Part shown: positions 8,942 to 41,608 of the stretch, piece after piece | How positions within the stretch are numbered: the first letter of the stretch is position 1 | Layout: every line of letters begins with the position of its first letter | Source of the DNA: Candidatus Blautia intestinavium | GTDB lineage: Bacteria; Bacillota; Clostridia; Lachnospirales; Lachnospiraceae | NCBI GenBank assembly: GCA_019113745.1 | Contig: DXGV01000058.1 | Coordinates: forward strand, 1-56,454 | Direction: 5' to 3' | Length of the DNA: 56,454 nucleotides | Made by a program: the position numbers and the translations under genes | The notes under the pieces: generated by a model | What the model was told of the DNA's origin: nothing | The model's database searches: none | Seen by the model: the letters and a program-made list of their open reading frames with translations, nothing else

Positions 8942-9013
8942 GCCCGCATTGAAGCTGATATATGAAACTGGTATCAACAACCGGTAAAGACAACTGCCGG
9001 AATTAGATATTGG

Positions 9014-13777: not shown

Positions 13778-13824
13778 AAAAAAGGTTAAAAATTTACCCT
13801 ACCGTAAATTTTTAACCTTTTTTT
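13778..13824 (+). terminator. Terminator of the sensor operon
   Basis: AAAAAAGGTTAAAAATTTAC (13778-13797) and its complement GTAAATTTTTAACCTTTTTT (13804-13823) form a perfect 20-bp stem with a six-base loop ending in a T-run. The symmetry means it could also act in reverse, but no minus gene is near. Confidence 0.8.
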
Positions 13825-19145: not shown

Positions 19146-20549
19146 ATGGCTACATATTATCTTGCGGTAGATATTGGAGCATCCAGCGGACGTCTGATCC
19201 TGGGACATATGGAAAACGGCAAAATGGAACTGGAGGAAGTATATCGTTTTGAAAACGGTATGATAAAGAAAGATGGAGAGCTTTGCTGGGAGTTCGACCG
19301 TCTGTTTAAAGAGATCATCAACGGCTTAAAGAAATGCAAAGAGATCGGCAAGATCCCGGTAAGCATGGGTGTGGATACCTGGGGCGTAGACTTTGTTCTT
19401 CTGGATAAAGACGGAAACGTGCTGGGCAATACAGTAGGCTACCGTGACCACAGAACAGAGGGAATGGACGAAGAAGTTTATAAGATCATTTCCCTGGAGG
19501 ATCTGTATGCGAGAACAGGTATCCAGAAAGCTATCTTCAATACGGTTTATCAGTTGATGGCAGTGAAGAAACAGCATCCGGAATATCTGGAGCAGGCGGA
19601 GACCCTTCTTCATGTGCCGGATTATTTCCACTATCTGCTTACAGGAAAGAAAACATGCGAATATACGGAAGCGACTACAGGACAGCTTGTAAATCCGTAC
19701 ACAAAAGACTGGGATTATGAACTGATCGATATGCTTGGATACCCAAGAAAAATTTTCCAGAAACTGATCATGCCGGGAACAAGCATCGGACACCTTTCTG
19801 AAGAAGTTCAGAAAGAAGTAGGCTTTGACCTGGAAGTAGTAGCTCCGGCTACCCATGACACAGGCTCCGCCGTACTGGCAGTTCCCGCTAACGACGACGA
19901 CTTTATCTATATCAGCTCCGGTACATGGTCATTAATGGGTCTTGAGAGAGAGACTCCGGACTGCTCTAAAAAGAGCTGTGAAATGAATCTGACAAATGAA
20001 GGCGGATATGCAGGACGTTTCCGCTATCTGAAAAATATCATGGGCCTGTGGATGATTCAGTCTGTTCGTCATGAGATCAATGATAAATACAGCTTTGCGG
20101 AGATCTGCGCAATGGCAGAGGAAGCAAAAGATTTTCCGTCCAGAGTGGACGCCAATGACGAGTGCTTCCTTTCTCCTGACAACATGACAGAAGAGGTAAA
20201 GGATTATTGCCGCAGGACCGGACAGAAAGTTCCGGAAACACTGGGAGAGCTGGCGACAGTGATTTATGCCAGCCTTGCGGACTGTTACGCAAAGACAGCC
20301 AAAGAGCTGGAAGAAATGACAGGAAGAACCTACAGCCGTATTCATGTAGTAGGCGGCGGTTCCAATGCAGGATACTTAAATGAACTGACTGCAAAAGCAA
20401 CAGGCAAGGAAGTTCATGCAGGTCCCGGAGAGGCTACCGCTATTGGAAATATTACCGCTCAGATGCTGAAAGCAGGAGAATTCAAGACCATCGAGGAAGC
20501 AAGAACCACTATCCACGAGTCTTTCGGCATCAAAATTTACAAAGCCTGA
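19146..20549 (+). CDS. rhaB: Rhamnulokinase
   Basis: The 467-aa FGGY-family enzyme phosphorylates L-rhamnulose to rhamnulose 1-phosphate. It has the phosphate loop DIGASSGR (9-16), the RhaB-typical GVDTWGVDFVLLD (75-87), GYRDHRT near 98-104, HVPDYFHYLLTG (156-167), the catalytic Asp238 in ATHDTGSAV, and the C-terminal VVGGGSNAGYLNELTA. Length and motifs fit RhaB well. It stands alone between its own promoter and a strong terminator; no rhamnose isomerase or aldolase is in the window, so partners must be elsewhere. The ABC system at 37963-42634 resembles rhamnose transporters and could supply its pathway. Confidence 0.93.
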   Translation: MATYYLAVDIGASSGRLILGHMENGKMELEEVYRFENGMIKKDGELCWEFDRLFKEIINGLKKCKEIGKIPVSMGVDTWGVDFVLLDKDGNVLGNTVGYRDHRTEGMDEEVYKIISLEDLYARTGIQKAIFNTVYQLMAVKKQHPEYLEQAETLLHVPDYFHYLLTGKKTCEYTEATTGQLVNPYTKDWDYELIDMLGYPRKIFQKLIMPGTSIGHLSEEVQKEVGFDLEVVAPATHDTGSAVLAVPANDDDFIYISSGTWSLMGLERETPDCSKKSCEMNLTNEGGYAGRFRYLKNIMGLWMIQSVRHEINDKYSFAEICAMAEEAKDFPSRVDANDECFLSPDNMTEEVKDYCRRTGQKVPETLGELATVIYASLADCYAKTAKELEEMTGRTYSRIHVVGGGSNAGYLNELTAKATGKEVHAGPGEATAIGNITAQMLKAGEFKTIEEARTTIHESFGIKIYKA

Positions 20550-22181: not shown

Positions 22182-23177
22182 ATGAAGTTAAGAAAATATT
22201 TACCGGCATTTATTCTGTTTACGGCATGTGCAGGTGCGGCAACGGTCCATGCCGCCAGCGTTGAAAGTTCCGGCACGACCTGGAATGAGCACGAATACCT
22301 GGTGGTAGAGGGAGATTATACCTGGGATGAGGCGAAAAAACTTTGTGAAGAGCAAGGCGGATATCTTGCAGTAATCACGTCCCAGGAAGAGCAGTCCTTT
22401 ATTCAGGAATTGATAAAAGGCAAGAATAATGAAGGCTTCTGGCTGGGAGCCGAAAACAGTGGCGATATATGGACATGGATCAACGGGGAAGAATTTCAAT
22501 ATCAGAACTGGGATTCAGGAGAACCAAATGGTGACAGCAGCGATATGAAACTGCAGATCTATGAAGAGGATGGAAAGTGGGACGATACCTGGAGCGACGG
22601 AGATATCAGCGGAATAAAGGAGCATGGATATATCTGTGAGAAAGATACTTCACAGAACGGGAATGGGGATCAAGACAAAGAGTCTGTTTCAGGAGAATCT
22701 GATACCCAAAAAGAGACTTCATCTGATCTGACAGATGAAAAGGACAATATTGTCGAGTTGGCTGATCTGCATACAATGGATTCATATGAATATGAGATTG
22801 TGGATACCTTGCTTACTGACTCTTATGGTGATAAATATAGAGGAAATATTGTTGAATTTGACGGCGGGTATGTTGATGAAGGAGGATACGCTGTTTACGA
22901 TTTAAACGGACAGTATGGGAAGTTTACCGGAAAGCTTGTGACATCAGAGCGGACGAGGCGTAGTGCTGGCATTAATCTGGCGATATTTGCTGATGGAAAA
23001 CAGATTTATTCTAAAGCGGAAATAACCAAACAGACACCGATGGAGGAGTTTCAGTTAGATCTGACCGGTGTGGGGAAATTAGAAATAAAAACATCAAGCA
23101 ATTTGCGCAGGGATGGATGGGCATCAGAGGCGTATGTCTACATTATAGATGGAATGAGAAACTGGAGGACGATGTAG
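22182..23177 (+). CDS. Surface protein, N-terminal part: C-type lectin and NPCBM-like domain (frameshifted)
   Basis: The 331-aa product has a signal peptide (1-24, ending VHA) and a C-type-lectin-like domain (about 32-154) with WLGA (87-90), the EPN sugar/calcium motif at 114-116, KWDD (132-135) and cysteines 55 and 152. A Ser/Thr/Glu-rich linker (155-190) and a beta-sandwich resembling NPCBM carbohydrate-binding modules (about 205-324, GGYAVYDLNGQYGKFTG) follow. The frame ends in eight foreign residues. At about 23153 a single missing A would restore IDG-NEKLEDD and join it to the next frame, giving a protein of about 810 aa. The lectin would bind host or microbial glycans at the surface. 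An AGGAG box supports the start. Confidence 0.82.
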   Translation: MKLRKYLPAFILFTACAGAATVHAASVESSGTTWNEHEYLVVEGDYTWDEAKKLCEEQGGYLAVITSQEEQSFIQELIKGKNNEGFWLGAENSGDIWTWINGEEFQYQNWDSGEPNGDSSDMKLQIYEEDGKWDDTWSDGDISGIKEHGYICEKDTSQNGNGDQDKESVSGESDTQKETSSDLTDEKDNIVELADLHTMDSYEYEIVDTLLTDSYGDKYRGNIVEFDGGYVDEGGYAVYDLNGQYGKFTGKLVTSERTRRSAGINLAIFADGKQIYSKAEITKQTPMEEFQLDLTGVGKLEIKTSSNLRRDGWASEAYVYIIDGMRNWRTM

Positions 23178-24610
23178 TTTATCCTGAATATGACAGCTTA
23201 AACGATACGTTTCTTATTGATTCTGACGGATTTTCAAATGCCAATACTCTGATGAGAGATTCCTACGGAAATCTTCATAATGGTTATCAGGGATTTGATA
23301 CATGGCAGGGGGGATATGCAGTTTATAATCTGGATCAGAAATATCTTACCTTTGAAGGCACGATAGTCACAGATGCTTCTGAGGGTTCAGAAGGATCTAT
23401 GCAGATCCAGATATATCTGGACGACCAGTTGGCCTTTTCCCAGGCAAATATAACGAAACAGACAGAACAGATACCGGTCAGCCTGGACGTAACAGATGTG
23501 AAAGTGATGAAAATTGTGACCCAAACAGAAGAAAGCCATCAATGGCTTTATCTGGTTGACGATATCTTATTGCCCCATATTCATACGCCTGGAGAATGGG
23601 AAATAAAACAGGAACCCACCTGTACAGTGAAAGGTATTAAAGTTCAGTATTGTACGGAGTGTAAAGAAGAATGTAATACAGGTGAGATTGAAGCGTCAGG
23701 TCACAAACCTGGCGATTGGGAAGTAAGAGAAGAACCAACCTGCACAAAAGAAGGAACAGAGGTTCAGATCTGTACAGTATGTAAGCAAGAATGTAATACA
23801 AGAGAGATAGAAGCCCTAGGACATGAGCCGGGAGAATGGGAGATAAAGCAGGAGGCAACCTGCGCGGAGGAAGGAATCAGGGTTAAATACTGTACCAGAT
23901 GTAAGGAAGAATGCGAAACAGAAAAGATAGATGTTCTGGAACATACGCCGGGAGATGAGTGGGAAACAGAAACAGAGGCGACCTGCAGTGAAGCCGGAGA
24001 AGAGGTAAAAAGATGTACGGTCTGCGGAGAGATATGCGAGAAACGTTCCATACCGCAAAAGGATCATGAGGAATCGGAAGAGTGGGAAACTACCATAGAA
24101 GCAACCTGCAGCGGAGAAGGGGAAGAAGTTCTGAGATGTAAAAACTGCGGTCTTATATTAGATCACAGAACTATAGAAAAGCAGGATCATGAACCGGGAG
24201 AAGCTGTTGAAACAGTTGCGCCCACCTGTACCTCATCGGGAACAAGCGTCGTTTATTGTAAAAATTGCGGCGAAATCCTGGAAACAGCTCCCATACCGGA
24301 GACGGGACATACGTTTGGAAAATGGGTGACAGTGCGCGGAAGTATCTGGAACTCTCCTATGGTGAAAGAACGGATCTGTTCTGTATGTGGTTTTCGGGAT
24401 TCCGAGAAAAGCTATGTCTGGATCTGGGTAAAACCTGTAGTGATCATTGCAATTCTTGGAGCTGTTATTATATGGATTTTATATACTCAAATGGTGAAAG
24501 CCGGTTTGGAGCCGAAAAAGGAAAATATAAAGAAATTATTTGAAAAAAAGAAAGCGAATCTGAAGGAGCGTCTGAACAGATCAGATAACGATGATGAAAT
24601 TAAAAAGTAA
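23117..24610 (+). CDS. Surface protein, C-terminal part: NPCBM-like domain, seven zinc-ribbon-like repeats, membrane anchor
   Basis: This frame is the continuation of the lectin gene; true homology starts near NEKLEDDVV (about 23153), and the annotated ATG at 23117 has no ribosome binding site. It contains a second NPCBM-like module (residues 28-152, GGYAVYNLDQKYLTFEG), then seven repeats of about 40 aa (156-436). Each repeat has the form H-x3-4-W..., a TC and a CxxC pair, for example YCTECK, ICTVCK and RCTVCG; the last repeat lacks the first Cys. A transmembrane helix (about 440-462) and a lysine-rich cytoplasmic tail close it. The repeats resemble extracellular zinc-ribbon-like modules common in Lachnospiraceae surface proteins. 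Anchoring is by the C-terminal helix, with no LPxTG. Confidence 0.8.
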   Translation: MGIRGVCLHYRWNEKLEDDVVYPEYDSLNDTFLIDSDGFSNANTLMRDSYGNLHNGYQGFDTWQGGYAVYNLDQKYLTFEGTIVTDASEGSEGSMQIQIYLDDQLAFSQANITKQTEQIPVSLDVTDVKVMKIVTQTEESHQWLYLVDDILLPHIHTPGEWEIKQEPTCTVKGIKVQYCTECKEECNTGEIEASGHKPGDWEVREEPTCTKEGTEVQICTVCKQECNTREIEALGHEPGEWEIKQEATCAEEGIRVKYCTRCKEECETEKIDVLEHTPGDEWETETEATCSEAGEEVKRCTVCGEICEKRSIPQKDHEESEEWETTIEATCSGEGEEVLRCKNCGLILDHRTIEKQDHEPGEAVETVAPTCTSSGTSVVYCKNCGEILETAPIPETGHTFGKWVTVRGSIWNSPMVKERICSVCGFRDSEKSYVWIWVKPVVIIAILGAVIIWILYTQMVKAGLEPKKENIKKLFEKKKANLKERLNRSDNDDEIKK

Positions 24611-28996: not shown

Positions 28997-31807
28997 CTAC
29001 AAAAACTGCTTCCGGTATTCCGTTGGAGTTACATGGAACTTCTTCTGGAACAGCCCGGAGAATTCATCAACGTTTTGGAAGCCGCAGCTTTCGGCTACCT
29101 GATAAATATTCAGGTCAGGATTGGACAGAAGTTTTAAGGCGCGGTCCAGCCGGAGATCCCATACATAACTCATAAAATCCCGGCCGGTATACTTTTTCAG
29201 ATGTTCGTCCATCTGAGCAGCGGTAATACCGAAATGTCCGGCGATTTTTTCCGCGTCTGTATTCAGCCCCCGTTCCTGAAGATACTGCAGAATATGATAG
29301 GTATACTCATCGCTGCCGTAATAACTGAATTCCTTTTCGCGGACAAGATATGTGAACAGAAGCAGCAGCATGGCTTCAAGCTGAAAGCTCTGATGGAAAT
29401 TGTTGTTCGCGTATTCCTGGATCAGAGAGGTCAGAGTGGACTGAGCCTGGATCTGATGACCCAGAGAAAAGAAAATATAATTTTTCCCGCTGTTTTTCTC
29501 TTCTCTGAAAAAGTCTGAAATCAGATTTCTGTCTTTATAAAACTCCGCCAGAGTCTGCCGGAAGATATCCTGCTTGAGACAGAAATTGATCAGAAGAGTA
29601 TCTTTCTGCTGGAAACGCAGCTCATGTACGGCTCTTGTATTAAGGAATATGAGATCGCCGGGAGCCATATATATTTCATTTCCATCGACAACATTGATAA
29701 GGGCTCCGCTGCACAGATAGTTAAGTTCAAAGTAGCCGTGGGTATGTCCGGGGAAGTCCTCCGTAACCTGGTGGGCGAGGATAAAGAAATTCTCGTCCGG
29801 AGGGAGCTCCTGGAACACCTGATGGAGATTTTTCAGGTTGTACAGATTGTGGGTAAGCCGCTGGCTGTACTGAAGTAGCTTTTCCGGAGCTACAATGTCC
29901 CGGCCCTGGGCGGAGGCAGAGGCCGATACTGTGCTGAGAGGAAGAAATACCTGACTGTCGTAGGAAGGTCTGGTGACATATGGGCTGCGGTATTTTTTCT
30001 GCGCCGGAATCCTTATCTGGACTTCTGTTCCCTGACCGGGCTGGCTGGAGTAGGTCAGACCGTAACCCTGGCCATAGAGGATCTCCAGCCTCCGGTGGGT
30101 ATTATAAACGGCGATATTTGTTCCGCCTGAACTGCTGCTGCCGGAACCGGAAATAATAGACGGCAGCTTTTCGGGAGGAATTCCAACCCCGTCGTCAGAG
30201 ATCAGAAGAACAATGTCGTTATTTTCCAGCCATCCCGTCAGTACAATGGTGCCGGATTTGCTGTCCTTTTCCAGGATCCCGTGGAGAATGGCATTTTCGA
30301 TCACAGGCTGAAGCGTCAGCTTGGGAATCTGGTATTCTGTCAGTTCATCCGGAATATCGGATACAAAGGTGATCCTGTCATGAAACCGCATGTTCTGAAG
30401 TTCTACATAGATGGATACATGCTCCTCTTCCCTGCCGATGGTCGTGATGCTTTCCTTCCGGCTCAGCGTCAGTTTATAAAATTTGGAAAGATTCTGTACA
30501 GCGGCGGAAACCTCTGAATTTCTTCCCTGGAGAGCAAGCCAGTTGATCATGTCCATAGTGTTGTAAAGAAAATGAGGATTGATCTGTGCCTGAAGGGAAT
30601 TGAACTCGGCAATGCGGAGTTCCTCCGCCGCTTTAAGCTGTTCTTCCAGAAGAGCCGTCATTTTCCGCGTCATATAGTTATAAGTGTCGATCAGATCGCC
30701 TACCTCGTCGTGATACTCGGGACTGTCCATAGGCACCAGAGTGCCTTCTCTGACTTTGCTCATCTGATGGATGACAGAGGAGATACGGTTCGTGATGGAA
30801 TGGGACAGAAAATGGGCGACAACAGACGCCAGAGCCAGCACGCCGAGATACATCAGGATATATTCCAGCATCAGGATATTGCTTCTGGCGATCAGAGGTT
30901 CCGCCGGAAGAACGGTGACCATAAACCATCCGGGCTGCTGGATGCTGTAAAATCCCGCGTAAACTGTTTTGTTCAGGATCTCGCGTTCCATAAAATTGTT
31001 GGAAGACATAAAGGAATCGCGGATCGTGTCATAATCCAGCCAGTAGATTCCGGCAAGGGCGTCGTCTGAGGAAGCTACCATGGAGTTCCTTTCATTTGTA
31101 ATATAGGAAACACTGCCCTCCTGGGTCAGATTGTCCTTCAGGATCTCGGCAATGTGATCCGAAGAAAAATAAACGGCAATATATGCCTGATAGGAATTCT
31201 GCTGATAATAAAAGGTTGTGGAAGTGATGTAGGCCATATCGCCGTAGGTTCTTTGTTCACGGTCGCCAAGATAAAAGGACGGACAGAAAAGCTCGGATCT
31301 GCCGGTACCCTGGAAGATCCCATACCAGTATGTTCCTTTGGCTTTGCTCATGGGAGAAAAATAGCCGCAGGTAAGCTCATCTTCAAAAAGCTGGACAGAA
31401 TCCATAGGAAAATCCATATAAATCTGAAGTCCGGTGATCTGCCGCCCGTCTATGAGAGACTGCACCGCATTATGAAATTCGTAGGTCTCCGTATTGTTAA
31501 GAAGCAGGGAGGACGGAGAGTTGACCGGCTGATGAAAGATCTTCTGAAAAAAAGGAAGATCCGTGATTTCCGTATATGCGTCCAGGATCTGCTGTACTTC
31601 CTCTTCGATAAGGGGAGCTGTTTTGGCGGAAGCATCCTGCTCCCGGCGGATCGTGTCGGCGATCACCATATCATAGAGCCTGCTGTAAAAAAAGATCCCT
31701 ACCGTAAGCACAGGAATGGTGACGGCAATTACCAGGACGATGGTAAACTTTGATTGAAGGCTCATATCACCGTAGGAATGGCGTATTTTCTGAAAAATAC
31801 TTCTCAT
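28997..31807 (-). CDS. Histidine kinase fused to an AraC-type transcription regulator
   Basis: The uninterrupted 936-aa frame joins two normally separate proteins. Residues 1-600 are a YesM-like membrane kinase: TM1 (20-42), a Cache-like extracellular region (45-300), TM2 (310-333), HAMP (335-388), QINPHFLYNT with His412, N box IENAILHG and G box SDDGVGIPP, and GQGTEVQIRIP ending the ATPase domain. Residues 605-640 are a Ser/Ala-rich linker. Residues 670-740 are an AraC-type cupin (FPGHTHGYFELNYL, APGDLIFLN). Residues 835-936 are an AraC helix-turn-helix pair (IYQVAESCGFQNVDEFSGLFQKKF). The C-terminal part would therefore be a membrane-tethered DNA binder. It overlaps the response regulator by 4 nt. 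Cupin sugar binding plus kinase sensing would integrate two signals; that is inference. Confidence 0.9.
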   Translation of the reverse strand: MRSIFQKIRHSYGDMSLQSKFTIVLVIAVTIPVLTVGIFFYSRLYDMVIADTIRREQDASAKTAPLIEEEVQQILDAYTEITDLPFFQKIFHQPVNSPSSLLLNNTETYEFHNAVQSLIDGRQITGLQIYMDFPMDSVQLFEDELTCGYFSPMSKAKGTYWYGIFQGTGRSELFCPSFYLGDREQRTYGDMAYITSTTFYYQQNSYQAYIAVYFSSDHIAEILKDNLTQEGSVSYITNERNSMVASSDDALAGIYWLDYDTIRDSFMSSNNFMEREILNKTVYAGFYSIQQPGWFMVTVLPAEPLIARSNILMLEYILMYLGVLALASVVAHFLSHSITNRISSVIHQMSKVREGTLVPMDSPEYHDEVGDLIDTYNYMTRKMTALLEEQLKAAEELRIAEFNSLQAQINPHFLYNTMDMINWLALQGRNSEVSAAVQNLSKFYKLTLSRKESITTIGREEEHVSIYVELQNMRFHDRITFVSDIPDELTEYQIPKLTLQPVIENAILHGILEKDSKSGTIVLTGWLENNDIVLLISDDGVGIPPEKLPSIISGSGSSSSGGTNIAVYNTHRRLEILYGQGYGLTYSSQPGQGTEVQIRIPAQKKYRSPYVTRPSYDSQVFLPLSTVSASASAQGRDIVAPEKLLQYSQRLTHNLYNLKNLHQVFQELPPDENFFILAHQVTEDFPGHTHGYFELNYLCSGALINVVDGNEIYMAPGDLIFLNTRAVHELRFQQKDTLLINFCLKQDIFRQTLAEFYKDRNLISDFFREEKNSGKNYIFFSLGHQIQAQSTLTSLIQEYANNNFHQSFQLEAMLLLLFTYLVREKEFSYYGSDEYTYHILQYLQERGLNTDAEKIAGHFGITAAQMDEHLKKYTGRDFMSYVWDLRLDRALKLLSNPDLNIYQVAESCGFQNVDEFSGLFQKKFHVTPTEYRKQFL

Positions 31808-33357
31808 TGTAAATTTTTCTCCCTGTATTCTGAAGGCGAAAGGCCGCTGTATTTTTTGAAGCTTTTTCCGAAATAATTTCCGTCGCTGTAACCGACTCTG
31901 GAAGAGATGTCGGAAATCTTGTAGCGGGAATCCTGGAGAAGCTGTTTTGCTTTTTCCATACGATATTCCGTTATATACTGATTCAGCGTCTGGCCTGTCT
32001 CGTTCTTAAAAAAGGTGCAGACATAGGAGGCGGAAAGAAACACATGGGCGCTGATATCCTTAACGGACAGAGTTTCATTCATATAATTCTGGCCGATATA
32101 TTTTTTGATCAGAAAAATCGTGGGATTTTCCTGAGAATTATTTGCCGCGTCCCGGAAGAACGCCTCTGTCTTTTCCGCAAGAGTATCATGCAGCTCGGAA
32201 AACGTAAAACACCGGGCAATGGTTTCCGCAATGCTCTCCGGATTTTTTGAACCTGGAATCTGCTGCTGGTTTCTGGCGCTTTCCAGACAGAGAAAAAGCC
32301 GGTAGTACAGATCCTTGACCGGATTCTGCAGAAAGCGGCGGCTGTTCAGGAAAATAGATGCCAGATGATCCAGAATGGATCTGGCTTCATCTTCATTTCC
32401 GGAAGAAAGCGCCTCTGAAAAAGAATCCTCAGGAGACGGCATGGAGAGCGCGGCGCCGGAAGCTGTTTTTTCCATCGCTTCGGAGGTGAGCATTGTATCC
32501 GCCGGGAAAAAGAAACTGCTCTGGAGCAGGATCACAGCGGAAGCGTAGGACTGGTACGCCCGGGAGATTCCGCAGACAGTATCTCCGGCGGCTATGGAAA
32601 ACTTTATAAAAGGCGCAAAGCGGGAACAAAGAAAATCTCCTACAGACCCGATGGTATGCGCGGAAGGAGCGGTCTGTCCAAAGAGAAAATACACCAGGTA
32701 CTGCCGTTTCTTTTCTGTGTAGATACAGTCCATGTGAAGATGGGAGACAAAATGCCGGAAATCATCAAAAAATTCCGGGAAAGAGGGCGTCTCCGGATGA
32801 ATGAAATCATCCATTTTGACGATCACAGAAGTAAAATAAGTGGATGAATTCATAGTCAGCTTCAGCTCCGAAACCAGCGTGTCCAGAGAACTGCTGTCCG
32901 GATTATAAGGAACAGTCAGAAGGAGGGCAAGCTGGGAGGCTGTTTCCATAGATTTCATGGTTTCGCCCCGGTGGGAATGAAGCTTCTGCATATAAAGGTT
33001 TCTGGCCTCCAGAACGGCGTCGCGGATCTCTGAGGGAACAAGAGGTTTTTCTATATAGTTTACGGCTTTCAGCTTGATAGCCGCTTTCAGATATTCTTTG
33101 TCTGAGTACCCGCTCATGAAAATCGGCACAGAGTCCGGCAGGATTTTTTCCAGACGTTCCAGCATAGTGATGCCGTCCATACGGGGCATACGGACGTCGC
33201 ACAGGATAATCTCCGGTCTGTGGATACGGGCTGCTTCCAGCCCGTGGACGCCGTCGTCAGCCTGAAGAACCTCGTCAATCCCAAGAGATTTCCAGTCAAG
33301 AGAGGAGATCACACCGGTACGTGTAAGCTCTTCGTCGTCTACAATCAACAGTTTCAT
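31804..33357 (-). CDS. AraC-type response regulator partnered with the fused kinase
   Basis: The 517-aa protein has a receiver domain with Asp7/Asp8, phosphoacceptor Asp54 (ILCDVRMP) and Lys104 (IEKPLVP), a poorly conserved middle region, and a C-terminal AraC double helix-turn-helix (about 415-515: VKDISAHVFLSASYVCTFFK and ISDISSRVGYSDGNYFGKSF). An AGGAGG box precedes the ATG. Its stop overlaps the kinase-AraC start by 4 nt. With the fusion protein, the pair would place two AraC-type DNA-binding domains in one signalling unit. It follows the glycosyl/glycerophosphotransferase genes by 52 nt and may regulate them. Confidence 0.92.
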   Translation of the reverse strand: MKLLIVDDEELTRTGVISSLDWKSLGIDEVLQADDGVHGLEAARIHRPEIILCDVRMPRMDGITMLERLEKILPDSVPIFMSGYSDKEYLKAAIKLKAVNYIEKPLVPSEIRDAVLEARNLYMQKLHSHRGETMKSMETASQLALLLTVPYNPDSSSLDTLVSELKLTMNSSTYFTSVIVKMDDFIHPETPSFPEFFDDFRHFVSHLHMDCIYTEKKRQYLVYFLFGQTAPSAHTIGSVGDFLCSRFAPFIKFSIAAGDTVCGISRAYQSYASAVILLQSSFFFPADTMLTSEAMEKTASGAALSMPSPEDSFSEALSSGNEDEARSILDHLASIFLNSRRFLQNPVKDLYYRLFLCLESARNQQQIPGSKNPESIAETIARCFTFSELHDTLAEKTEAFFRDAANNSQENPTIFLIKKYIGQNYMNETLSVKDISAHVFLSASYVCTFFKNETGQTLNQYITEYRMEKAKQLLQDSRYKISDISSRVGYSDGNYFGKSFKKYSGLSPSEYREKNLQ

Positions 33358-33409: not shown

Positions 33410-34564
33410 TCAGCGCTCCCGGATTTTTTTCAGTATATGACGGCAGATTTCTCCGGCACAGGGTTTTTGGACCTCGTTAAACAGACGGTTTACCCTGTCC
33501 CGGTCCGCTTTCCAGCAGTCGTTTTCCGGGATCAGACAATCCAGAAATTCCTTCATGGTTCCAGGTCTGGGACCGGGAGTCACTTCATCGTAATCAAAAT
33601 TCATTCCTCTTCCCGCAAGATACTCTTCCTTGTCATAGGGAAGAAAAATGATGGGATTTCCGGTGAGCAGATAATCGATATAGATACTGGAGTAATCTGT
33701 GATCAGGCAGTCGAAGATATCAAGGATACCTGTAACATCTCCGGCCTCATCTTCTCCGAGAAAGCGTATGCGGCTGCCGAGGAAAGGACGGGCGGAAGCC
33801 CGCTCCGCAATATGCGTCCTGATAAAAAGAAGCATATTCTTTTCTTCCAGATACTTTTCCAGAAGTTTCTGGTCAAAATCCGGAAAAGGAAAAAGACGTA
33901 CGCTTCCCTGATCGCGGAAGGTAGGCGCGTAAAGAATAACGCGGCTGTATTCCGGCAGATCCGGGTATATTTTATCAAGAAGCTTTTTTCTGTTCTTTCT
34001 GCGGAAAATGTTATCGTTTCTGGGCTGTCCCCAGACTTTTATCCGGCTTTCCGGAACATGGAAACTCTCGGCCATAAGAGGAACAAGGGACCGGGAGGTA
34101 GTTAATATGCAGGTGTAATTTTCTGAAAAAATTTTCCGGAAATACAGCCGGGAGGACTTCTTCAGATTGGGGTCCAAAAGGGCGATTTTTTTCAGCGGTA
34201 CGCCATGCCACAGATTGACGATCATCCTGTTTCTGGAAAGACCGGTACCATAGACAGGGAGACCTGCCGAAGTAAACCACACGCCTGCGGAAAGCGCCCT
34301 GCGGATACCTGAGCTTGATCTTGTTTCAAAAAAATACTGAGCTCCGAATTTCTCAGACAGTCTTTGACGGAGCTGATCGTCGTTTATTACAAAGAGCGGA
34401 GTGACTTCAGGAACATGCTCCTTTACATATTCAAAAAGATACTGTGAATTATAATTATAATGGCTGTTGTCCGTGGAGGAGAACACCCATACATAGGGAT
34501 CCGGACGGCTTCCTCCCAGATGGGAGAGGATTTCTCCGGCGATCAGAGTCTTTGCTTTTCCCAT
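33410..34564 (-). CDS. CDP-glycerol:glycerophosphotransferase-like protein (TagB/TagF family)
   Basis: The 384-aa peripheral membrane enzyme belongs to the family that transfers glycerol or ribitol phosphate to wall or capsule polymers. Diagnostic motifs are NLWHGVPLKKI (catalytic His region, about 117-127) and CLITDYSSIYIDYLLTGNPIIF (about 288-309), with a basic RNDNIFRRKNRKK segment between. The protein is shorter than full TagF polymerases and similar to single-domain TagB-type primases or capsule-associated transferases. It is 29 nt after the GT2 gene in the same transcript. The acceptor glycan is unknown. Confidence 0.88.
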   Translation of the reverse strand: MGKAKTLIAGEILSHLGGSRPDPYVWVFSSTDNSHYNYNSQYLFEYVKEHVPEVTPLFVINDDQLRQRLSEKFGAQYFFETRSSSGIRRALSAGVWFTSAGLPVYGTGLSRNRMIVNLWHGVPLKKIALLDPNLKKSSRLYFRKIFSENYTCILTTSRSLVPLMAESFHVPESRIKVWGQPRNDNIFRRKNRKKLLDKIYPDLPEYSRVILYAPTFRDQGSVRLFPFPDFDQKLLEKYLEEKNMLLFIRTHIAERASARPFLGSRIRFLGEDEAGDVTGILDIFDCLITDYSSIYIDYLLTGNPIIFLPYDKEEYLAGRGMNFDYDEVTPGPRPGTMKEFLDCLIPENDCWKADRDRVNRLFNEVQKPCAGEICRHILKKIRER

Positions 34565-34593
34565 TACGGTTTTTCCTTTCTCCTTTCAGAGCT

Positions 34594-35337
34594 TCAGCGG
34601 TATTTCCATATTCCATGCAGAGCATAGGAAATGAAAAAAACAGCGCTTGTTATGGGGGAATATCCCATATACCGGTAAACGCGGTAAGTCATGGCTGCGG
34701 ACTTCCGTTTATTCCTGGATTTTCCGCCCTGGCTCAAGCGGTATTTCAGATAGGGCTTGTTGATCCCTGCCGCGGGACCGTATTCCTTCAGGATCTTCAG
34801 CCAGGTAAGATAGTCTTCGTGGCTGTCGTCATGCTCCATGGGATATGCAAGTGCGGCTTCTCTTTTAAGCAGCACAGAAGAACAGTTAATGCTGTTGTGT
34901 TTCAGCAGATCTCTGTAGGAAACAGTGCTGCCTACAGGAATATATTTCCCGGTGGAGGTTCCGTCCGGATTCATAAGTTCCCGCCCAGTGGAGCAGAGCA
35001 CCCGCCGGGTGCGCTCCATGACCTCAAGCTGTTCTGTCAGCTTTCCGGCTTCCCACCAGTCGTCCGCGTCAAGAAAAGCGATATATTTTCCGGACGCTTT
35101 CTGAACGCCCAGATTGCGGGAAGCGGCTGCCCCTTTATTATATGGATTTCTGATATAGTGAAAATTTTCTTTGTTTTCGTAGGGAGCAAGAACCTCCCCG
35201 GTACGGTCTGTAGAGCAGTCGTCAATGACGAGAAGCTCCAGAGGGACTTCCTGGCAGAACACAGAATCTACGGCCTGGCGGATAAAATCCGCTCCATTGT
35301 ATACCGGCATAATGACAGATACCAGAGGATAAGTCAT
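34594..35337 (-). CDS. Family 2 glycosyltransferase
   Basis: The 247-aa GT-A enzyme opens with VSVIMPVYNGADFIRQAVDSV, then LLVIDDCSTDRT, the metal/sugar-nucleotide DxD as FLDADDWWEAGK (about 93-104), and a C-terminal hydrophobic end that may touch the membrane. It resembles teichoic acid or capsule side-chain transferases. The spacing of 20 nt to the upstream fusion gene and 29 nt to the next gene indicates one operon. The donor sugar cannot be deduced. Confidence 0.9.
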   Translation of the reverse strand: MTYPLVSVIMPVYNGADFIRQAVDSVFCQEVPLELLVIDDCSTDRTGEVLAPYENKENFHYIRNPYNKGAAASRNLGVQKASGKYIAFLDADDWWEAGKLTEQLEVMERTRRVLCSTGRELMNPDGTSTGKYIPVGSTVSYRDLLKHNSINCSSVLLKREAALAYPMEHDDSHEDYLTWLKILKEYGPAAGINKPYLKYRLSQGGKSRNKRKSAAMTYRVYRYMGYSPITSAVFFISYALHGIWKYR

Positions 35338-35357
35338 GATAAGCTCCTTTCATGCTG

Positions 35358-37763
35358 TTATATGGATGATATAGTCTGGCGGATCAGTTCCTCCGTCATG
35401 GCGGCGGACTCTGCGTTGGCCCTTTCGTAATCCACGGAGAGCGCAGCCGCTTTTCCCCGGGCAAAAAGTTCCATTCCCTCAAGAAGCCCTTCGGCAGAGT
35501 TTTTCAGAAGGACTCCCCCATGCTCTGAGAGAAAACCGTGGGGACCGCTGACATCGCAGGCCATAACAGGCACTCCCAGGGTGTCAGCTTCCAGCATGAC
35601 CAGTCCCTGGCCCTCGTAGCAGGACGAAAGCAGGAAAAGACTGCATTTTTTCAGAACAGGCATTGGATTGCTCATGGAACGGATCAATATGATATGATCC
35701 GAGGCGGAACAGGAACGGGCATGTCTGACCGTATCCTCATAAAGCTCTCCGCTGCCGCCGATGATGATCAGCCATGTTCCGCGGTGAGATTTCCAGTATT
35801 TATCAAAAGCGTCTATCAGCCGCATATGGCCTTTTTCCGGAGAAAAACGTCCGATGCTGATAAATTTCGTGTCGCTGCTGTCAAGAACAGCGCGCAGCTC
35901 CTCAAGAGAATGATCCGATAATGTATTTTCATCAAAAGAGAGTTCTTCCTCAGCCCGCCGGAGAACGCTTTTATAGTCGTGACAGTTGCCGATCACAGAA
36001 ACGCGGCCGGATCCTTCGCCGCTTATTTCTGCAACAGACGGGACGATATCCCTGCTGACAGACACGATGCGGTCGTAAGTACGGTAAGCTTCCCGGAGGA
36101 GATACGGATTCTGGTTCCCCCGGGTCCTGATCTCCCGGACCATATCGTTGTGGACCCAGATGATCTTCGGACATGGAGCTTCTTCAAACAGAGAAGTAAT
36201 ATAGGCTTCATATCCGTTGTAATGGATCACAAGAGAAAATTCTGTTCCGCCGAAATGCTTTTTCCATTCCCTTTGGTAAGCCCGGTGAATACGGCGCCGG
36301 ACAGCCTCTGATCCGGATCCTTTCATGAAGTTCATCAGGGCTGCTGCTGTGAGGAGATCCATGTTCATCTCGCTTCCCAGAGGATAGATTCCCATTTCCG
36401 GAGGGATTTTATCCAGAATTTCCTGATGTTCCTTTGTATACAGAGTACGGAAAGAGAGAAAATAATTATATTTTGAAAGATCCATTTCCGTCAGAAGAGA
36501 ACACAGAGCAGTGGTAATACCGTTCTGGGCCAGATCGCCGCCGTAAATAAGAACGTTCTGCTTTCCGTTTCCGGTGTATCTTTTTGTCCGGCAGCAGTTT
36601 TCGCCAAGAAATACATGACGGCATATTTTTTCAGTGCCGTGTCCGTCCTCGTAGGTGGCGTAGCGCTTAAGAAACTCTTCGTCAGGAACGCCGCCCTCTC
36701 TGTGAACGAAAGGGATCACCTGACGGGGATCTTCTGTGTACAGGAAAGGATACGATCCGATATCCTCATACATTCCCCGGCCGCTTTCATACTCCTTCCG
36801 GTCGTAGGCAAACAGGATGATTTTTTTGCCTGCATTGGCAAAGTCGTAAAATACGCTGGAATAATCCGTGATCAGAGTATCGCACAGACTGAGCCCTTCA
36901 TAAGTGTCCCACTGGGCGGGAAAGGAACGGATATGGCGGTATCCTTCAAAAGTCTCGCTTCCGTGGAGAAACGGGTGAAGCTTCACCAGAAGGACCTCTC
37001 CGTCGCGGAGCTCGCTGTCCCAGAGCCGGAGATGACCGGACAGCGTATCCATGTAATCCTGACGGTCCACATTTCCGATCAGGCCCCGGAAGGTAGGAAG
37101 ATAAGTGATCAGCCGTTTGCCTTTCAGTCCTGCTTTTTCAAGAAGGCTTTCATCAGGAGAGCCGCGGAATATATCGTTTCTGGGATATCCCTCCCGGAGT
37201 ACGGTGCCCCGGTAAAGACTGGGGAGCATATAAGCGCCGGACATTTTTTCTTCCATAAAAGAATTGGGAAATATAAGATAATCAGAATCCAGAAGATTCC
37301 GCAGGACGTTCCCCATGCTGACAGCTTCCGGGCGGTTGTCCCGGCCCATTTTCTTCAGGGGCGTTCCATGCCAGGTGTTCAGATAGATCTGCCCTTCTTT
37401 TTTTATGAAGCGTCCCGGAAAAGTGGTGTCGTTTACCAGATAACCTGCCTGACTTAAGGCGCGGTAATAGGATAGGGAACCGGTACGGACAATCCGTGAT
37501 ACTTTCAGAGAATTCTGCCGGAGCTTTTCGCCGATCTCTTTTGAAGCGTCCCGGTGTACGGACAGAACCAGGGAAAAATTCCGGTAGGAGTCTTTCTGAA
37601 GCTCCTTGAGTATTGCCAGGATATTGCTTTCCAGGGCCTTTCCGCTTCTGGACTCCAGAAGGATCATCTCCGGATCCAGTCTGGTTCTTTCATAAAAGCT
37701 ATTATAAAAAGGATACCACGCTCCGCTGCGCAGTTTCCTTTTAACTTTATCTATAAAACGCAT
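35358..37763 (-). CDS. Fusion of CDP-glycerol glycerophosphotransferase and family 4 glycosyltransferase
   Basis: The 801-aa protein has two catalytic halves. Residues 1-390 are a TagB/TagF-like domain with LNTWHGTPLKKMGRDNRPEA (about 129-148), VKLHPFLHG and TLITDYSSVFYDFANAGKKI. Residues 405-800 are a GT-B glycosyltransferase of the GT4 type with an N-terminal YGGDLAQNGIT loop, FISIGRFSPEKGHMRLIDAF and the donor-site SSCYEGQGLVMLEADTLGVP. Such a fusion could add a glycerophosphate unit and a sugar to the same growing glycan. It is the promoter-proximal gene of the minus-strand cluster. Confidence 0.88.
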   Translation of the reverse strand: MRFIDKVKRKLRSGAWYPFYNSFYERTRLDPEMILLESRSGKALESNILAILKELQKDSYRNFSLVLSVHRDASKEIGEKLRQNSLKVSRIVRTGSLSYYRALSQAGYLVNDTTFPGRFIKKEGQIYLNTWHGTPLKKMGRDNRPEAVSMGNVLRNLLDSDYLIFPNSFMEEKMSGAYMLPSLYRGTVLREGYPRNDIFRGSPDESLLEKAGLKGKRLITYLPTFRGLIGNVDRQDYMDTLSGHLRLWDSELRDGEVLLVKLHPFLHGSETFEGYRHIRSFPAQWDTYEGLSLCDTLITDYSSVFYDFANAGKKIILFAYDRKEYESGRGMYEDIGSYPFLYTEDPRQVIPFVHREGGVPDEEFLKRYATYEDGHGTEKICRHVFLGENCCRTKRYTGNGKQNVLIYGGDLAQNGITTALCSLLTEMDLSKYNYFLSFRTLYTKEHQEILDKIPPEMGIYPLGSEMNMDLLTAAALMNFMKGSGSEAVRRRIHRAYQREWKKHFGGTEFSLVIHYNGYEAYITSLFEEAPCPKIIWVHNDMVREIRTRGNQNPYLLREAYRTYDRIVSVSRDIVPSVAEISGEGSGRVSVIGNCHDYKSVLRRAEEELSFDENTLSDHSLEELRAVLDSSDTKFISIGRFSPEKGHMRLIDAFDKYWKSHRGTWLIIIGGSGELYEDTVRHARSCSASDHIILIRSMSNPMPVLKKCSLFLLSSCYEGQGLVMLEADTLGVPVMACDVSGPHGFLSEHGGVLLKNSAEGLLEGMELFARGKAAALSVDYERANAESAAMTEELIRQTISSI

Positions 37764-37824: not shown

Positions 37825-37868
37825 TGTTCACCATAGTTTTGTGCAAATAACTGAAAAATATTTTACCC

Positions 37869-37924
37869 CGATTCCAAAAATATTCCCATTTTTTTAAAAA
37901 ATCACTAATGCTAAAATGGAATCG
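37869..37924 (+). promoter_or_regulatory. Possible operator/promoter region of the second sugar ABC operon
   Basis: CGATTCCA (37869-37876) and its inverted copy TGGAATCG (37917-37924) bracket an AT-rich stretch; TAAAAT at 37912-37917 may be a -10. The -35 is not convincing. Paired half-sites suggest regulator binding, but no regulator can be assigned. Confidence 0.4.
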
Positions 37925-37962: not shown

Positions 37963-39471
37963 GTGTCTGAATATGTTCTTGAGTTAAAAGGCATTACGAA
38001 GATTTTCCCGGGCGTTAAGGCGCTGAACAACGTGCAGTTCCAGTTGAAACCCGGTGAAGTTCATGCGCTTATGGGCGAAAACGGCGCCGGTAAATCTACC
38101 TTCATCAAAGTTATTACCGGTGTACATAAGGCGGAAGAAGGCGAAATGTTCTTAAACGGAAAGAAAGTGGACTTTAAAGGACCGAAGGATGCCCAGGCGG
38201 CAGGTATCGCAGCCGTTTATCAGCATCCCACTTCATATCCGCATCTGACCGTGGCGGAAAACATTTTCATGGGCCACGAGATCATCAAAAACAAAATGAT
38301 CCAGTGGAAGGCTATGAACGCAGAGGCAAACAAGCTCCTGCAGCAGCTTGACGCAGACTTCGACGCCACAGATGAGATGGGTACGCTGAGCGTGGCTCAG
38401 CAGCAGATGGTAGAGATTGCCAAGGCAATGTCCACCAACGCCAAGATCATCATCCTGGATGAGCCTACGGCGGCACTGACGAAATCTGAATCCGAGAAGC
38501 TCTATACACTTGTCGATAAATTAAAGGAAGAAGGCGTATCCATTATCTTCATTTCCCACCGTTTTGAGGATATGTACCGTCTGGCTTCCCGCGTGACCGT
38601 ATTCCGTGATTCCCAGTACATCGGAACTTATGACGTAAACGGGATCACCAATGCGGACCTGATCAAAGCAATGGTCGGACGTGAGATCAACGACCTGTTC
38701 CCGAAGCCGGAGGTAAAACTGGGCCAGGAAATGCTGAGAGTGGAGAATCTGTCCAGAACCGGTTTCTTCAAGGATGTGTCCTTCAGCGTAAGAGCCGGAG
38801 AGATCGTAGGTCTTACCGGTCTGGTAGGCGCCGGACGTACAGAGACTGTGGAGGCGATCTGCGGCATCACTCATCCGGATTCCGGAAAGGTATATCTGGA
38901 AGGAAAAGAAATACATATTAAACGCCCCTCCGACGCAATGGAAAAAGGAATCATCCTGCTTCCGGAAGACCGTCAGAAAGAGGGTCTGATCATGAGCTGG
39001 GGACTTGGAAGAAACGTAACGCTTCCTACCATCAGCAAATACGCGAAGCATGGGATCAATGATGAGAAGACAGAGAGAGATCTGGCGAAAAAGCTTCTGG
39101 AGGAGGTAGACACCAAGGCAGTGGATATCTTCCAGCCGGCAAGTTCTCTTTCCGGCGGCAACCAGCAGAAAGTTGTAGTTGCCAAGGCACTCAGCCAGGA
39201 GATGAAGGTCGTTATCATGGACGAGCCCACCAAGGGCGTGGACGTAGGTGCCAAAGCGGAGATCTACGCGATCATGGGAGATCTGGCAAAGAGAGGATAC
39301 GCCATCATCCTGATCTCTTCGGAGATGCCTGAGATCCTGGGCATGTCAGACCGTATCGTTGTTATGTGCAATGGAAGAAAGACCGGCGAGCTGAACCGTG
39401 ACGAGGCTACTCAGGAAAGAATCCTTGAGCTTGCCATGGAGAAAGGAACCGGAAAGGGGGCTGAAAAATGA
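37963..39471 (+). CDS. Sugar ABC transporter ATP-binding protein (rhamnose/autoinducer-2 type)
   Basis: The 502-aa double-cassette ATPase has Walker A GENGAGKST, signature-region LSVAQQQM and Walker B IILDEPTAAL in the first half, and GLVGAGRTE, LSGGNQQK and VIMDEPTKGVDVG in the second. The segment after the first Q-loop, AAVYQHPTSYPHLTVAENIF, recalls RhaT/LsrA-type ATPases. The GTG start follows GGGAGG. It overlaps the next permease by 4 nt. It would energise import with the two permeases and binding protein downstream. Confidence 0.94.
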   Translation: MSEYVLELKGITKIFPGVKALNNVQFQLKPGEVHALMGENGAGKSTFIKVITGVHKAEEGEMFLNGKKVDFKGPKDAQAAGIAAVYQHPTSYPHLTVAENIFMGHEIIKNKMIQWKAMNAEANKLLQQLDADFDATDEMGTLSVAQQQMVEIAKAMSTNAKIIILDEPTAALTKSESEKLYTLVDKLKEEGVSIIFISHRFEDMYRLASRVTVFRDSQYIGTYDVNGITNADLIKAMVGREINDLFPKPEVKLGQEMLRVENLSRTGFFKDVSFSVRAGEIVGLTGLVGAGRTETVEAICGITHPDSGKVYLEGKEIHIKRPSDAMEKGIILLPEDRQKEGLIMSWGLGRNVTLPTISKYAKHGINDEKTERDLAKKLLEEVDTKAVDIFQPASSLSGGNQQKVVVAKALSQEMKVVIMDEPTKGVDVGAKAEIYAIMGDLAKRGYAIILISSEMPEILGMSDRIVVMCNGRKTGELNRDEATQERILELAMEKGTGKGAEK

Positions 39472-40463
39472 AACAGAAATCACTTATGAAAAGAATTACA
39501 GGCTCTCGTGAAGCCCTGCTTGCGATTGTCCTGATCGTGCTTTTTGTGATCGTTACAGCGATCAGCCCATCATTCCTGACGCCAAAGTCACTGATGGATA
39601 TGCTGAAAAACAATGCGGTAATGATGGTCATGGCGCTTGGTATGCTCTGCGTCATGCTGGTAGGCGGAATTGATATTTCCATTATGTCTACGCTGGCTTT
39701 ATCCGGTATGTCTATCGGAATGATGCTGAAATACGATGTGATCGCGAACCCGGTTCTGGCGTTTGTTATCGCCATTGCCATTGGTATTGTCTGCGGATTT
39801 GTAGTAGGTCTGGTGATCTCAAGAGCAGACGTGCCGCCGATCATCGCTACCATGGGCTTTATGTATATTTATCGTGCAATGGGTTATCTTGTTTCCAACG
39901 GCGGCGAGTGGGCCAGCGCGGCAGCTCTGGGAAGCTTCAAGAATTTTGCTACCAGCAAGTTTTTAGGAATCAACTGTGTGATTTGGGTGATCATTGTCTG
40001 CTACGCTTTCTTCTTCTGGTTTATGAAATGGACCAGGACCGGACGTAAGATCTACGCGGTAGGAAGCAACGCGGAGGCGGCTGAAGTTTCCGGTATTAAC
40101 GTAAAAAATACGAAACTTCTTGTTTATACGATCATGGGTCTTCTTTCCGGTCTGGGCGGAGCCCTTCAGGTTTCCGTTTATGCATCGGCCATGCCTGACA
40201 TGCAGTACGGCGGAGAGATGGATGTTATCGCAGCCTGTGTAATCGGCGGCGTCAGCATGAACGGCGGACGGGGAACTGTTCTGGGGGCCCTTCTTGGTTC
40301 TCTGATCCTTGCGACTATCGCGAGAGCGCTTCCGCTGATCCCGTTCTTCAACCAGCTCTGGCTGAATACGATCAAGGGCCTGATCATTCTTGCAGTTGTT
40401 ATCATTAACATTGTTCTGCAGCGTGCTGCTGACAGAAACGCACTGAAAGGAAGGGAGATGTAA
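39468..40463 (+). CDS. Sugar ABC transporter permease
   Basis: The 331-aa BPD_transp_2 permease has about nine hydrophobic helices, the conserved LVGGIDISIMSTLALSGM and the ATPase-contact loop GSNAEAAEVSGINVKNTK. It is translationally coupled to the ATPase and 2 nt from the second permease. A heterodimeric channel with that protein is likely, as in RhaP/RhaQ or LsrC/LsrD systems. Confidence 0.92.
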   Translation: MKQKSLMKRITGSREALLAIVLIVLFVIVTAISPSFLTPKSLMDMLKNNAVMMVMALGMLCVMLVGGIDISIMSTLALSGMSIGMMLKYDVIANPVLAFVIAIAIGIVCGFVVGLVISRADVPPIIATMGFMYIYRAMGYLVSNGGEWASAAALGSFKNFATSKFLGINCVIWVIIVCYAFFFWFMKWTRTGRKIYAVGSNAEAAEVSGINVKNTKLLVYTIMGLLSGLGGALQVSVYASAMPDMQYGGEMDVIAACVIGGVSMNGGRGTVLGALLGSLILATIARALPLIPFFNQLWLNTIKGLIILAVVIINIVLQRAADRNALKGREM

Positions 40464-40465
40464 TC

Positions 40466-41473
40466 ATGGCTGGAAAATCTGGAAGAAGTATTAACAATGT
40501 GCCAGAAAGTTCGGTAAAGCGGATGATCTTCTCCTGGGAAGGAATTCTGGTTCTGATCTTTATTGCCGTAAATATTTTCTGCGCAATATTCTCAGAGTTT
40601 TATAACCTGAACAGTCTGCTCCGTCAGATGCCGGTTTATCTGGCAGAGGTATTCCTGATGCTGACAATGGCATATATCCTGGTGCTGGGCGAGATTGATA
40701 TCTCTGTAGGCTCTATCGTCTGCCTTTCCGCTACCATGTGCTGTATTGTCTGCAATTCCAACGCGCCGTTTATCGTAGTCGTACTGACTGCGCTGATCGT
40801 AGGAACCATATGCGGAGCCATCAACGGATTCATCCTTACGAGATTTCAGGAGCTTCCTCCTATGATCGTAACTCTGGCAACACAGATCATCTTCCGTGGT
40901 ATTGCCGAGATCGTTCTGGGAGACGGAGGAAGTATTTCCGTTACAAATACGGACGGTTTCCGTCTGATCGGCGGAAAAGTGGGACAGGTTCCCTACATTC
41001 TTTTCCTGGTGCTGATCCTTGCAGTGATCTTTGCCGTTATTCTTGGAAAGAGCACTTTCGGAAGAAGAGTATACGCTATCGGTACAAACCGTCTTACTGC
41101 ATACTATTCCGGTATTCATGTACAGAAGATCCGTATGATCATTTACACAGTGATGGGAACTATTTCCGGACTGTGCGCCCTGTTCCTGGTGTCCTCCTCC
41201 TATGGTGCGAATACCACAACAGGAAACGGATTTGAAATGGACGCTATCGCTATGGCAGTATTCGGCGGCATTTCTTCTACAGGCGGTAAAGGAAATCTTG
41301 CCGGCGGCGTGATCTCCGCGTTCATCATCGTATGTCTGCGTGTTGGTCTTGGACAGAAGAACGTAAACGCTCAGGTAATCCTTCTTATCATCGGCGTTCT
41401 GCTTGTTGCGGCGGTTGCCCTGCCGAACATCGTAGGACAGGTAAAGAGAGCCGTACAGGTAAAGAGCAAATAA
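40466..41473 (+). CDS. Sugar ABC transporter permease, second subunit
   Basis: The 335-aa paralogous permease has LVLGEIDISVGSIVCLSATM and the coupling loop GTNRLTAYYSGIHVQKIR. AGGGAGATG just upstream of its ATG and the two-base gap indicate coupled translation. It differs enough from the partner permease to be an old duplication. Its presence supports a rhamnose- or AI-2-type importer rather than ribose. Confidence 0.92.
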   Translation: MAGKSGRSINNVPESSVKRMIFSWEGILVLIFIAVNIFCAIFSEFYNLNSLLRQMPVYLAEVFLMLTMAYILVLGEIDISVGSIVCLSATMCCIVCNSNAPFIVVVLTALIVGTICGAINGFILTRFQELPPMIVTLATQIIFRGIAEIVLGDGGSISVTNTDGFRLIGGKVGQVPYILFLVLILAVIFAVILGKSTFGRRVYAIGTNRLTAYYSGIHVQKIRMIIYTVMGTISGLCALFLVSSSYGANTTTGNGFEMDAIAMAVFGGISSTGGKGNLAGGVISAFIIVCLRVGLGQKNVNAQVILLIIGVLLVAAVALPNIVGQVKRAVQVKSK

Positions 41474-41488
41474 TTTTCCGGTGTTTCC

Positions 41489-41573
41489 TGCGCAGAAAGC
41501 TTCTGCGCGGACAGAGAAATATCTGAAATGGAAGAAGCAGGTAGCTGCGCTTCTGAAAAAGAGGCGCAGTTGC
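41489..41573 (+). promoter_or_regulatory. Pair of intercistronic hairpins before the second binding-protein gene
   Basis: GCGCAGAA-AGC-TTCTGCGC forms a tight hairpin at 41489-41507. A second, interrupted stem pairs GCTGCGC (41544-41550) with GCGCAGT (41564-41570). Neither is followed by a T-run. Placement mirrors the hairpin at 17442-17465 in the first ABC operon. Confidence 0.6.
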
Positions 41574-41608
41574 AAATAAAAACTATATTATCCAAGGGAG
41601 GAAAAAAA

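Follow-up and report, generated by a model that had tools for sequence, protein, structure and literature searches.

The window analysed here is a 56,454-nucleotide stretch from Candidatus Blautia intestinavium, positions 1 to 56,454 of contig DXGV01000058.1 (assembly GCA_019113745.1). A gene on its reverse strand encodes a 936-aa protein in which a membrane histidine kinase is fused to a cupin and an AraC-type helix-turn-helix (HTH) domain. The original prediction, made from the sequence alone, had claimed a single frame with no stop or frame change. The list of open reading frames (ORFs) bears this out: the frame has an ATG start and is uninterrupted by a stop or frameshift. As was also predicted, the gene overlaps by 4 nt the gene for a separate AraC-type response regulator (RR). 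Kinases and regulators of this type go by the names YesM and YesN. The features of the pair, with their basis in brackets, are:

28997–31807, reverse strand: the 936-aa fusion of a YesM-type histidine kinase, a cupin and an AraC-type HTH (ORF, Pfam, relatives)
31688–31759, reverse strand: transmembrane (TM) helix 1, residues 17–40 (hydropathy; model helix 17–40)
30905–31687, reverse strand: extracytoplasmic sensor of about 260 residues, residues 41–301 (Pfam, model)
30815–30883, reverse strand: TM segment 2, about residues 309–331 (hydropathy; long model helix 302–354)
30371–30610, reverse strand: His_kinase domain with His412, residues 400–479 (Pfam; NPHFLYN)
29999–30313, reverse strand: HATPase_c domain, residues 499–603 (Pfam; N, D and G positions)
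29807–29992, reverse strand: linker, residues 606–667 (predicted local distance difference test score, pLDDT, under 50 for 608–667; alignment)
29528–29788, reverse strand: cupin, residues 674–760 (invariant residues)
29177–29308, reverse strand: first HTH with an acidic recognition helix, residues 834–877 (alignment, charge)
29000–29176, reverse strand: second HTH (helices 4–7) with an acidic recognition helix, residues 878–936 (alignment, charge)
31804–33357, reverse strand: RR with a receiver, a GGDEF-like region and an AraC HTH (Pfam)

From the N-terminus, the order of domains in the fusion is TM, extracytoplasmic sensor, TM, His_kinase, HATPase, cupin and AraC HTH. Hydrophobic 19-residue windows cover residues 15–44 and 309–339. 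The sensor region between them (residues 41–301) had no Pfam match at E ≤ 0.01, and a weak HAMP match at residues 333–381 (17.7 bits) was below the cut-off of 25. A Pfam search of the whole protein, as the original prediction had proposed, found the kinase, cupin and HTH domains: His_kinase at residues 400–479 (E 8.5e-23), HATPase_c at 499–603 (E 4.4e-12), the AraC_binding cupin at 676–817 (E 4e-7) and HTH_18 at 856–934 (E 1.5e-17, 64 bits). The features of a YesM-type two-component kinase – the H, N and G boxes – are all present, and the kinase is as complete as had been claimed. His412 lies within NPHFLYN, a motif present in 80 of 80 related kinases, and N410–N416, N505, D538, G540 and G542 are identical throughout 63 aligned sequences. 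No Pfam match to a receiver domain (Response_reg) was found anywhere in the 936 residues, which speaks against the earlier suggestion that the AraC half is phosphorylated in cis. The AraC HTH fold with its two HTH units is predicted to be intact, from the HTH_18 match and from structural matches to AraC-family domains. The claim of a complete cupin and AraC HTH therefore stands for the domains and fold of the model; it does not stand for the helices that would face DNA, which are abnormal for an AraC protein. Separate translation of the AraC half was considered and rejected: in the window gene the only candidate starts between residues 595 and 715 are GTG at 664 and ATG at 714, and by eye neither is preceded by a clear ribosome site.

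Pfam places REC and HTH_18 domains in the RR, plus a sub-threshold GGDEF_2 match. An RR frame was found upstream of the kinase in 80 of 80 related loci, and the receiver motif in 78 of 81 regulators, window included. Two of the three without it are cut by contig ends (L043, L104); in the third, L062, the frame is short although it lies within the contig. That frame (L062:5264–5992) is only 243 aa long and corresponds to the second half of the protein, though the contig extends upstream.

The 80 loci (L030–L109) are the best 80 of 97 relatives from a scan that used one genome per species. Classified by reading frame, 17 encode the whole fusion (FULL), seven encode a kinase with just the last 55 or so residues of the AraC half, from the second HTH (HALF), and 56 encode the kinase only; the loci were chosen by similarity, and the 17 do not measure how prevalent the fusion is. 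Genome searches scored a set number of candidates per genome: 14, or up to 34 in the genus and 5 in the family. Of the 64 genomes searched in the window's genus, 11 have a fused frame. The search of the family covered 397 genomes and yielded six matches to the AraC half at E ≤ 1e-40, namely the window protein, one more fused protein and four standalone ones. Among 13 kinase-only genomes of the genus, ten had no match to the AraC half at E ≤ 1e-30, and the other three had proteins merely 25–29% identical. In the survey of homologues proposed earlier, the fusion was present in a minority of the relatives, next to the 56 loci with the kinase only and the seven with only the tail of the AraC half. 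The relatives are either fused or without the AraC half; they are not always split near residue 605, as they would be if this were really two genes, and no split pair was found. An assembly join is ruled out by the many independent assemblies that carry the fusion and by an isolate, Blautia schinkii DSM 10518 (L033), that is one of the FULL loci.

The fused frame is open in 16 of the 17 FULL loci. In the remaining one (L041, G034:C7) a break near residue 150 leaves two open pieces that overlap. The frame of L031 continues past the contig edge. In L040 unrelated residues (at about 8830–8990) stand in place of the first HTH; the protein stays in frame and retains its second HTH. One further sequence at a contig edge (L026, G017:C205) is another AraC half of the fused type, which has 52% identity to its counterpart in the window and is truncated by the contig end. 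The same genome also has an intact fusion, with which L026 groups, and L026 seems to be what the contig retains of a second gene of the fused type.

Recognition helices of AraC/XylS factors would be expected to be neutral or basic if they are to contact DNA. Those of the fused proteins are not. Helix 3 had a net charge between −3 and −1 in all 17 fused proteins scored (L040, with its scrambled first HTH, was left out) and between 0 and +3 in all 27 comparison HTHs. For helix 6 it was −4 to −1 in 18 of 18 fused proteins and at least 0 in 26 of the 27. Over the whole HTH domain the range was −6 to 0 in the fused proteins (14 scored) and −1 to +9 in the comparison set (25 scored). The 27 comparison HTHs comprise 21 taken by place from the same genome, the window's second regulator and five standalone proteins. 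In a second alignment both helices were negative in all 19 fused rows and zero or positive in all nine standalone relatives, five of which were already among the 27. The helices are also variable. Across the 16 loci in which both proteins could be read, mean entropy of the two recognition helices was 0.28 and 0.29 bit in the RR and 1.47 and 1.56 bit in the fused protein. Even in the more diverse set of 56 kinase-only loci the RR helices had 0.50 and 0.60 bit and were never net negative.

The likely target of the system is a sugar ATP-binding cassette (ABC) transporter operon located elsewhere in the window:

37963–42634, forward strand: sugar ABC transporter operon, likely target (profile matches, neighbourhoods)
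37963–39471, forward strand: ATPase gene of the operon
39468–40463 and 40466–41473, forward strand: permease genes
41528–42634, forward strand: binding-protein gene
37857–37887, forward strand: predicted RR operator, direct repeat AATATTTTACCC-N7-AAAAATATTCCC (pattern search)

In 65 of the 80 loci the regulator–kinase pair is divergent from the ATPase gene of such a transporter, with other genes between them in L045. The transporter is on the same strand as the pair in five more loci and partly in view in L030. It is not shown in nine loci (L031, L043, L053, L062, L063, L066, L087, L103, L104), in two of which, L053 and L062, several kb upstream are visible. The non-coding part upstream of the transporter has a consensus direct repeat, AATATTTTACCC-N7-AAATATTTTCCC. 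A score of at least 17 of 24 was reached by 64 of 70 upstream regions and by none of 70 single-base shuffles. By class, the repeat was present in 13 of 14 FULL, 7 of 7 HALF and 44 of 49 kinase-only regions. The repeat precedes the transporter even in loci that have their regulator genes in another place, this window being one example. If three mismatches are allowed, this genome has it once. With at most two, and with one fixed spacing in the pattern, it occurs exactly once in 32 of the 64 genus genomes and not at all in the other 32; the reversed control pattern occurred once in the 64 genomes taken together. The fixed spacing overlooks genomes such as L057–L059, in which the period is 18 nt. 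We infer that the RR binds the direct repeat. A weaker repeat of the same kind (19/24), which also scores on the opposite strand, is present at 13788–13817, shortly before another permease gene of a sugar transporter.

The original prediction had proposed a membrane-tethered transcription factor. On this reading the AraC half would bind an operator of its own close to the membrane, with the kinase or a sugar as the gate. The predicted intact fold, with its 64-bit HTH_18 match, is compatible with this, and Bacteroides hybrid systems show that AraC HTHs tethered to a kinase can bind DNA (PMC11253607). The proposal does not agree with the recognition helices, which are acidic and variable, or with the first HTH, which is scrambled in L040 and missing in the seven HALF loci. 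A 28-row alignment of upstream regions, examined by eye, had no block conserved solely in the fused species, and the operator is also found in species without the AraC half. We consider a tethered transcription factor very unlikely. A DNA-binding role for the AraC half is unsupported because its helices are acidic and variable, because the operator is present with or without the fusion, and because some loci retain only half of the HTH domain; acidic helices make DNA binding unlikely. The reading that we favour, with a probability of about 0.58, is that the AraC half is a captive pseudo-AraC domain which serves as a cytoplasmic input to the kinase, with DNA output solely via the RR.

The history of the fusion bears on what the AraC half does. 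Five standalone relatives (323–350 aa, 36–44% identical) align from about residue 615 to the end of the fusion, with BLAST alignments starting at 617–639, and the junction is at about 605–615. Because these relatives align through to the end, the part appended to the C-terminus of the kinase was evidently a complete AraC-type regulator of about 325 aa, with a cupin and two HTHs. Scanning 18 neighbour proteins revealed no target common to the neighbourhoods of all five relatives; two of them, L126 and L157, have a sugar-binding-protein gene close by. In a tree with nine standalone sequences a branch separates these from the fused halves, at a support of only 77/72; a single fusion event seems likely. 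Distances between kinases and distances between AraC halves are correlated (r = 0.94; none of 10,000 permutations as high) across 17 rows, which are the window and 16 FULL loci with L041 left out.

The FULL state is scattered over the kinase trees. The starred branches force at least eight changes of state both in the tree of 82 rows, whose two surviving outgroup rows are on very long branches, and in a tree of 43 of those rows, without the outgroups, L041 and 36 others; such counts cannot separate gain from loss. The kinase-only locus L061 has, just downstream and in another frame, a 37-residue fossil that shares 78% identity with the AraC half encoded by its FULL relative L060, and L051 retains the linker and a stub. 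These two remnants point to repeated loss or trimming of the AraC half as the main direction of change. Exchange between strains may add to the patchy spread of the fusion. Compared with L030, the window between 28989 and 38109 is a mosaic of 85–100% identity in 250-nt steps. The kinase core includes about 700 nt that are identical or nearly so, with no synonymous change across residues 390–603, and in the AraC half identity falls to 85%. The mosaic suggests recent recombination between close relatives.

In the cupin, P686, H688, H690, E694, G701 and G717 are identical in 19 fused rows, and H688, H690 and E694, the residues of its H-x-H-x3-E motif, are kept in all 28 fused and standalone rows. 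The ratio of non-synonymous to synonymous substitution rates (dN/dS) was calculated per domain from six pairs. It was 0.02–0.06 in the kinase core (five pairs), 0.03–0.09 in the cupin and 0.08–0.14 in the second HTH (five of six pairs scorable for each), and 0.09–0.28 in the first HTH (six pairs). The first HTH and the linker are the least conserved stretches of the fused protein. In the HALF tails dS was measurable in six of 21 pairs; dN/dS was about 0.03 in four pairs (of 15) within a six-member clade, and 0.19 and 0.23 in two pairs with L054. All 25 FULL and HALF rows have Tyr902, against only 2 of 27 others; it is also found in two of the nine standalone relatives, and its conservation may be partly inherited. 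Cys908, found in all 25 fused or cut-down rows, was rejected as a signature of the fusion, as seven of the nine standalone relatives also have it.

These rates matter for a second explanation, that the fusion was accidental and the AraC half is an idle passenger on its way out. The repeated changes of state in both trees, the L061 fossil and the L051 tail are what such decay would leave, as is the first HTH, whose dN/dS is the highest of the folded parts in several pairs; one of the 17 fused frames is broken. The other 16 are open, and neither the cupin nor the second HTH has the substitution pattern of an idle domain (0.03–0.14 in five of six pairs). The tails in the four scorable close HALF pairs are equally constrained, and Tyr902 persists in all 25 rows, though two of the nine standalone relatives share it. 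Decay of an idle domain is therefore regarded as unlikely.

The HALF loci raise another possibility. Their retained tail suggests that the second HTH has a job for which neither the cupin nor the first HTH is required. The net charge over helices 4–7 is −5 to 0 in FULL proteins (18), −5 to −3 in HALF proteins (7) and 0 to +4 in the regulators (25). With these opposite charges, the acidic pseudo-HTH might act as a DNA mimic and dock the basic DNA-binding domain of the RR at the membrane, to be released by sugar bound to the cupin or by phosphorylation of the RR. Docking would account for the survival of the second HTH without the cupin or the first HTH. It sits poorly with the RR itself, the helix words of which are mostly unchanged in the 56 kinase-only loci that lack such a partner, and we regard it as quite improbable. 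In a related version, the pseudo-HTH would be a built-in anti-activator that clasps the RR, sugar in the cupin would loosen the clasp, and some lineages would have been pared down to a half-HTH of about 55 residues that still works without the sensor; this too appears distinctly doubtful.

The identity of the sugar is suggested by a gene elsewhere in the window:

19146–20549, forward strand: rhamnulokinase gene (TIGR02627 above cut-off)

A rhamnulokinase gene is near this system in many relatives and scores above the cut-off in 14 of the 15 genomes tested. In one genome (G023, locus L016) rhamnulokinase and isomerase genes are both within about 5 kb of the kinase. For the binding protein of the transporter the nearest family is the rhamnose-binding RhaS, with 290 bits against a cut-off of 342. 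In NCBIfam the AraC half best matches the rhamnose activator RhaS, at 68.9 bits and far under the cut-off of 288, and in the structure model the best match of the predicted cupin is the regulatory domain of RhaR, roughly tied with AraC and ExsA. The likeliest ligand would be rhamnose or a near relative, a deoxy-sugar.

A captive pseudo-AraC domain could have arisen and could work as follows. A standalone AraC-family regulator would have been fused to the C-terminus of a two-component kinase for sugar uptake. After the fusion the surface of the HTH would have turned acidic and the reading of DNA ceased; the cupin pocket was maintained under strong purifying selection. The kinase would then have two inputs, the extracytoplasmic sensor and a cytoplasmic cupin that binds imported sugar, such as rhamnose or a similar deoxy-sugar. 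The sugar-bound cupin would act by way of the tethered pseudo-HTH to adjust the kinase or phosphatase activity, a direction of control that we infer, and the RR alone would contact DNA, at a single operator, the direct repeat that precedes the ABC transporter operon. The alternative offered by the original prediction, a dual-input node acting with the RR, holds up in this form, as does the fusion itself.

Several points weigh against a captive input domain. The full-length structure model has a predicted template modelling score (pTM) of 0.37 and does not define an interface. The charge comparison counts related proteins as separate observations, helix 6 is not uniformly acidic in the HALF loci (−4 to +1), and DNA binding is still compatible with acidic helices. 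The operator consensus was derived from some of the same, related regions that it scored. A majority of the loci (56 of 80) manage without the AraC half, and sensing alone is no explanation for the seven loci that retain the second HTH without the cupin. As for rhamnose, the L-rhamnose isomerase model TIGR01748 had no match in this genome, which is 82.7% complete; it had matches in 5 of the 15 genomes, over the cut-off in three, and another isomerase model was over its cut-off in none of the 15.

The system resembles three known ones. With YesM/YesN-type systems it shares the His_kinase and HATPase_c domains, the adjacent regulator with REC and AraC HTH domains and the linkage to a sugar ABC operon; the difference is the extra C-terminal cupin and AraC HTH of the kinase. 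Like the hybrid two-component systems (HTCS) of Bacteroides, it combines a membrane kinase and an AraC-type HTH in a single chain for the control of sugar use. The HTCS have a receiver before the HTH and bind DNA themselves, whereas here a cupin is in place of the receiver, the HTH is acidic and there is a separate RR. With the RhaS and RhaR regulators it shares the H-x-H-x3-E motif, the two HTHs, a rhamnulokinase gene nearby and a predicted cupin fold; it differs in the fusion to a kinase, in recognition helices unlike those of DNA-binding members, and in a score far under the RhaS equivalog cut-off. In searches of PMC no paper on a fusion of kinase, cupin and AraC domains was recognised from titles and the openings of abstracts, and PMC3870299 gave no hit for two-component or Blautia. 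The fusion appears to be a transcription factor that a sensor kinase has taken over, and in related, common gut bacteria both intermediate stages and losses can still be seen. If this is true, it would illustrate the merging of one-component and two-component regulation, and a fused AraC domain should not be called DNA-binding before its helices have been inspected.

Three genes resembling glycosyl- or glycerophosphotransferases are upstream of the RR gene, at 33410–37763. Relatives of all three are found in L030, L031, L032, L042 and L049, and of two of the three in L045; none was seen in the stretches of the remaining loci. A second YesN/YesM-type pair, with a REC-HTH regulator and a dCache kinase, is located at 9344–12756, directly upstream of another sugar ABC operon. 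The protein encoded at 23117–24610 has, by eye, about six repeats of a unit of about 40 residues with paired C-x-x-C motifs, followed by a hydrophobic C-terminal segment.

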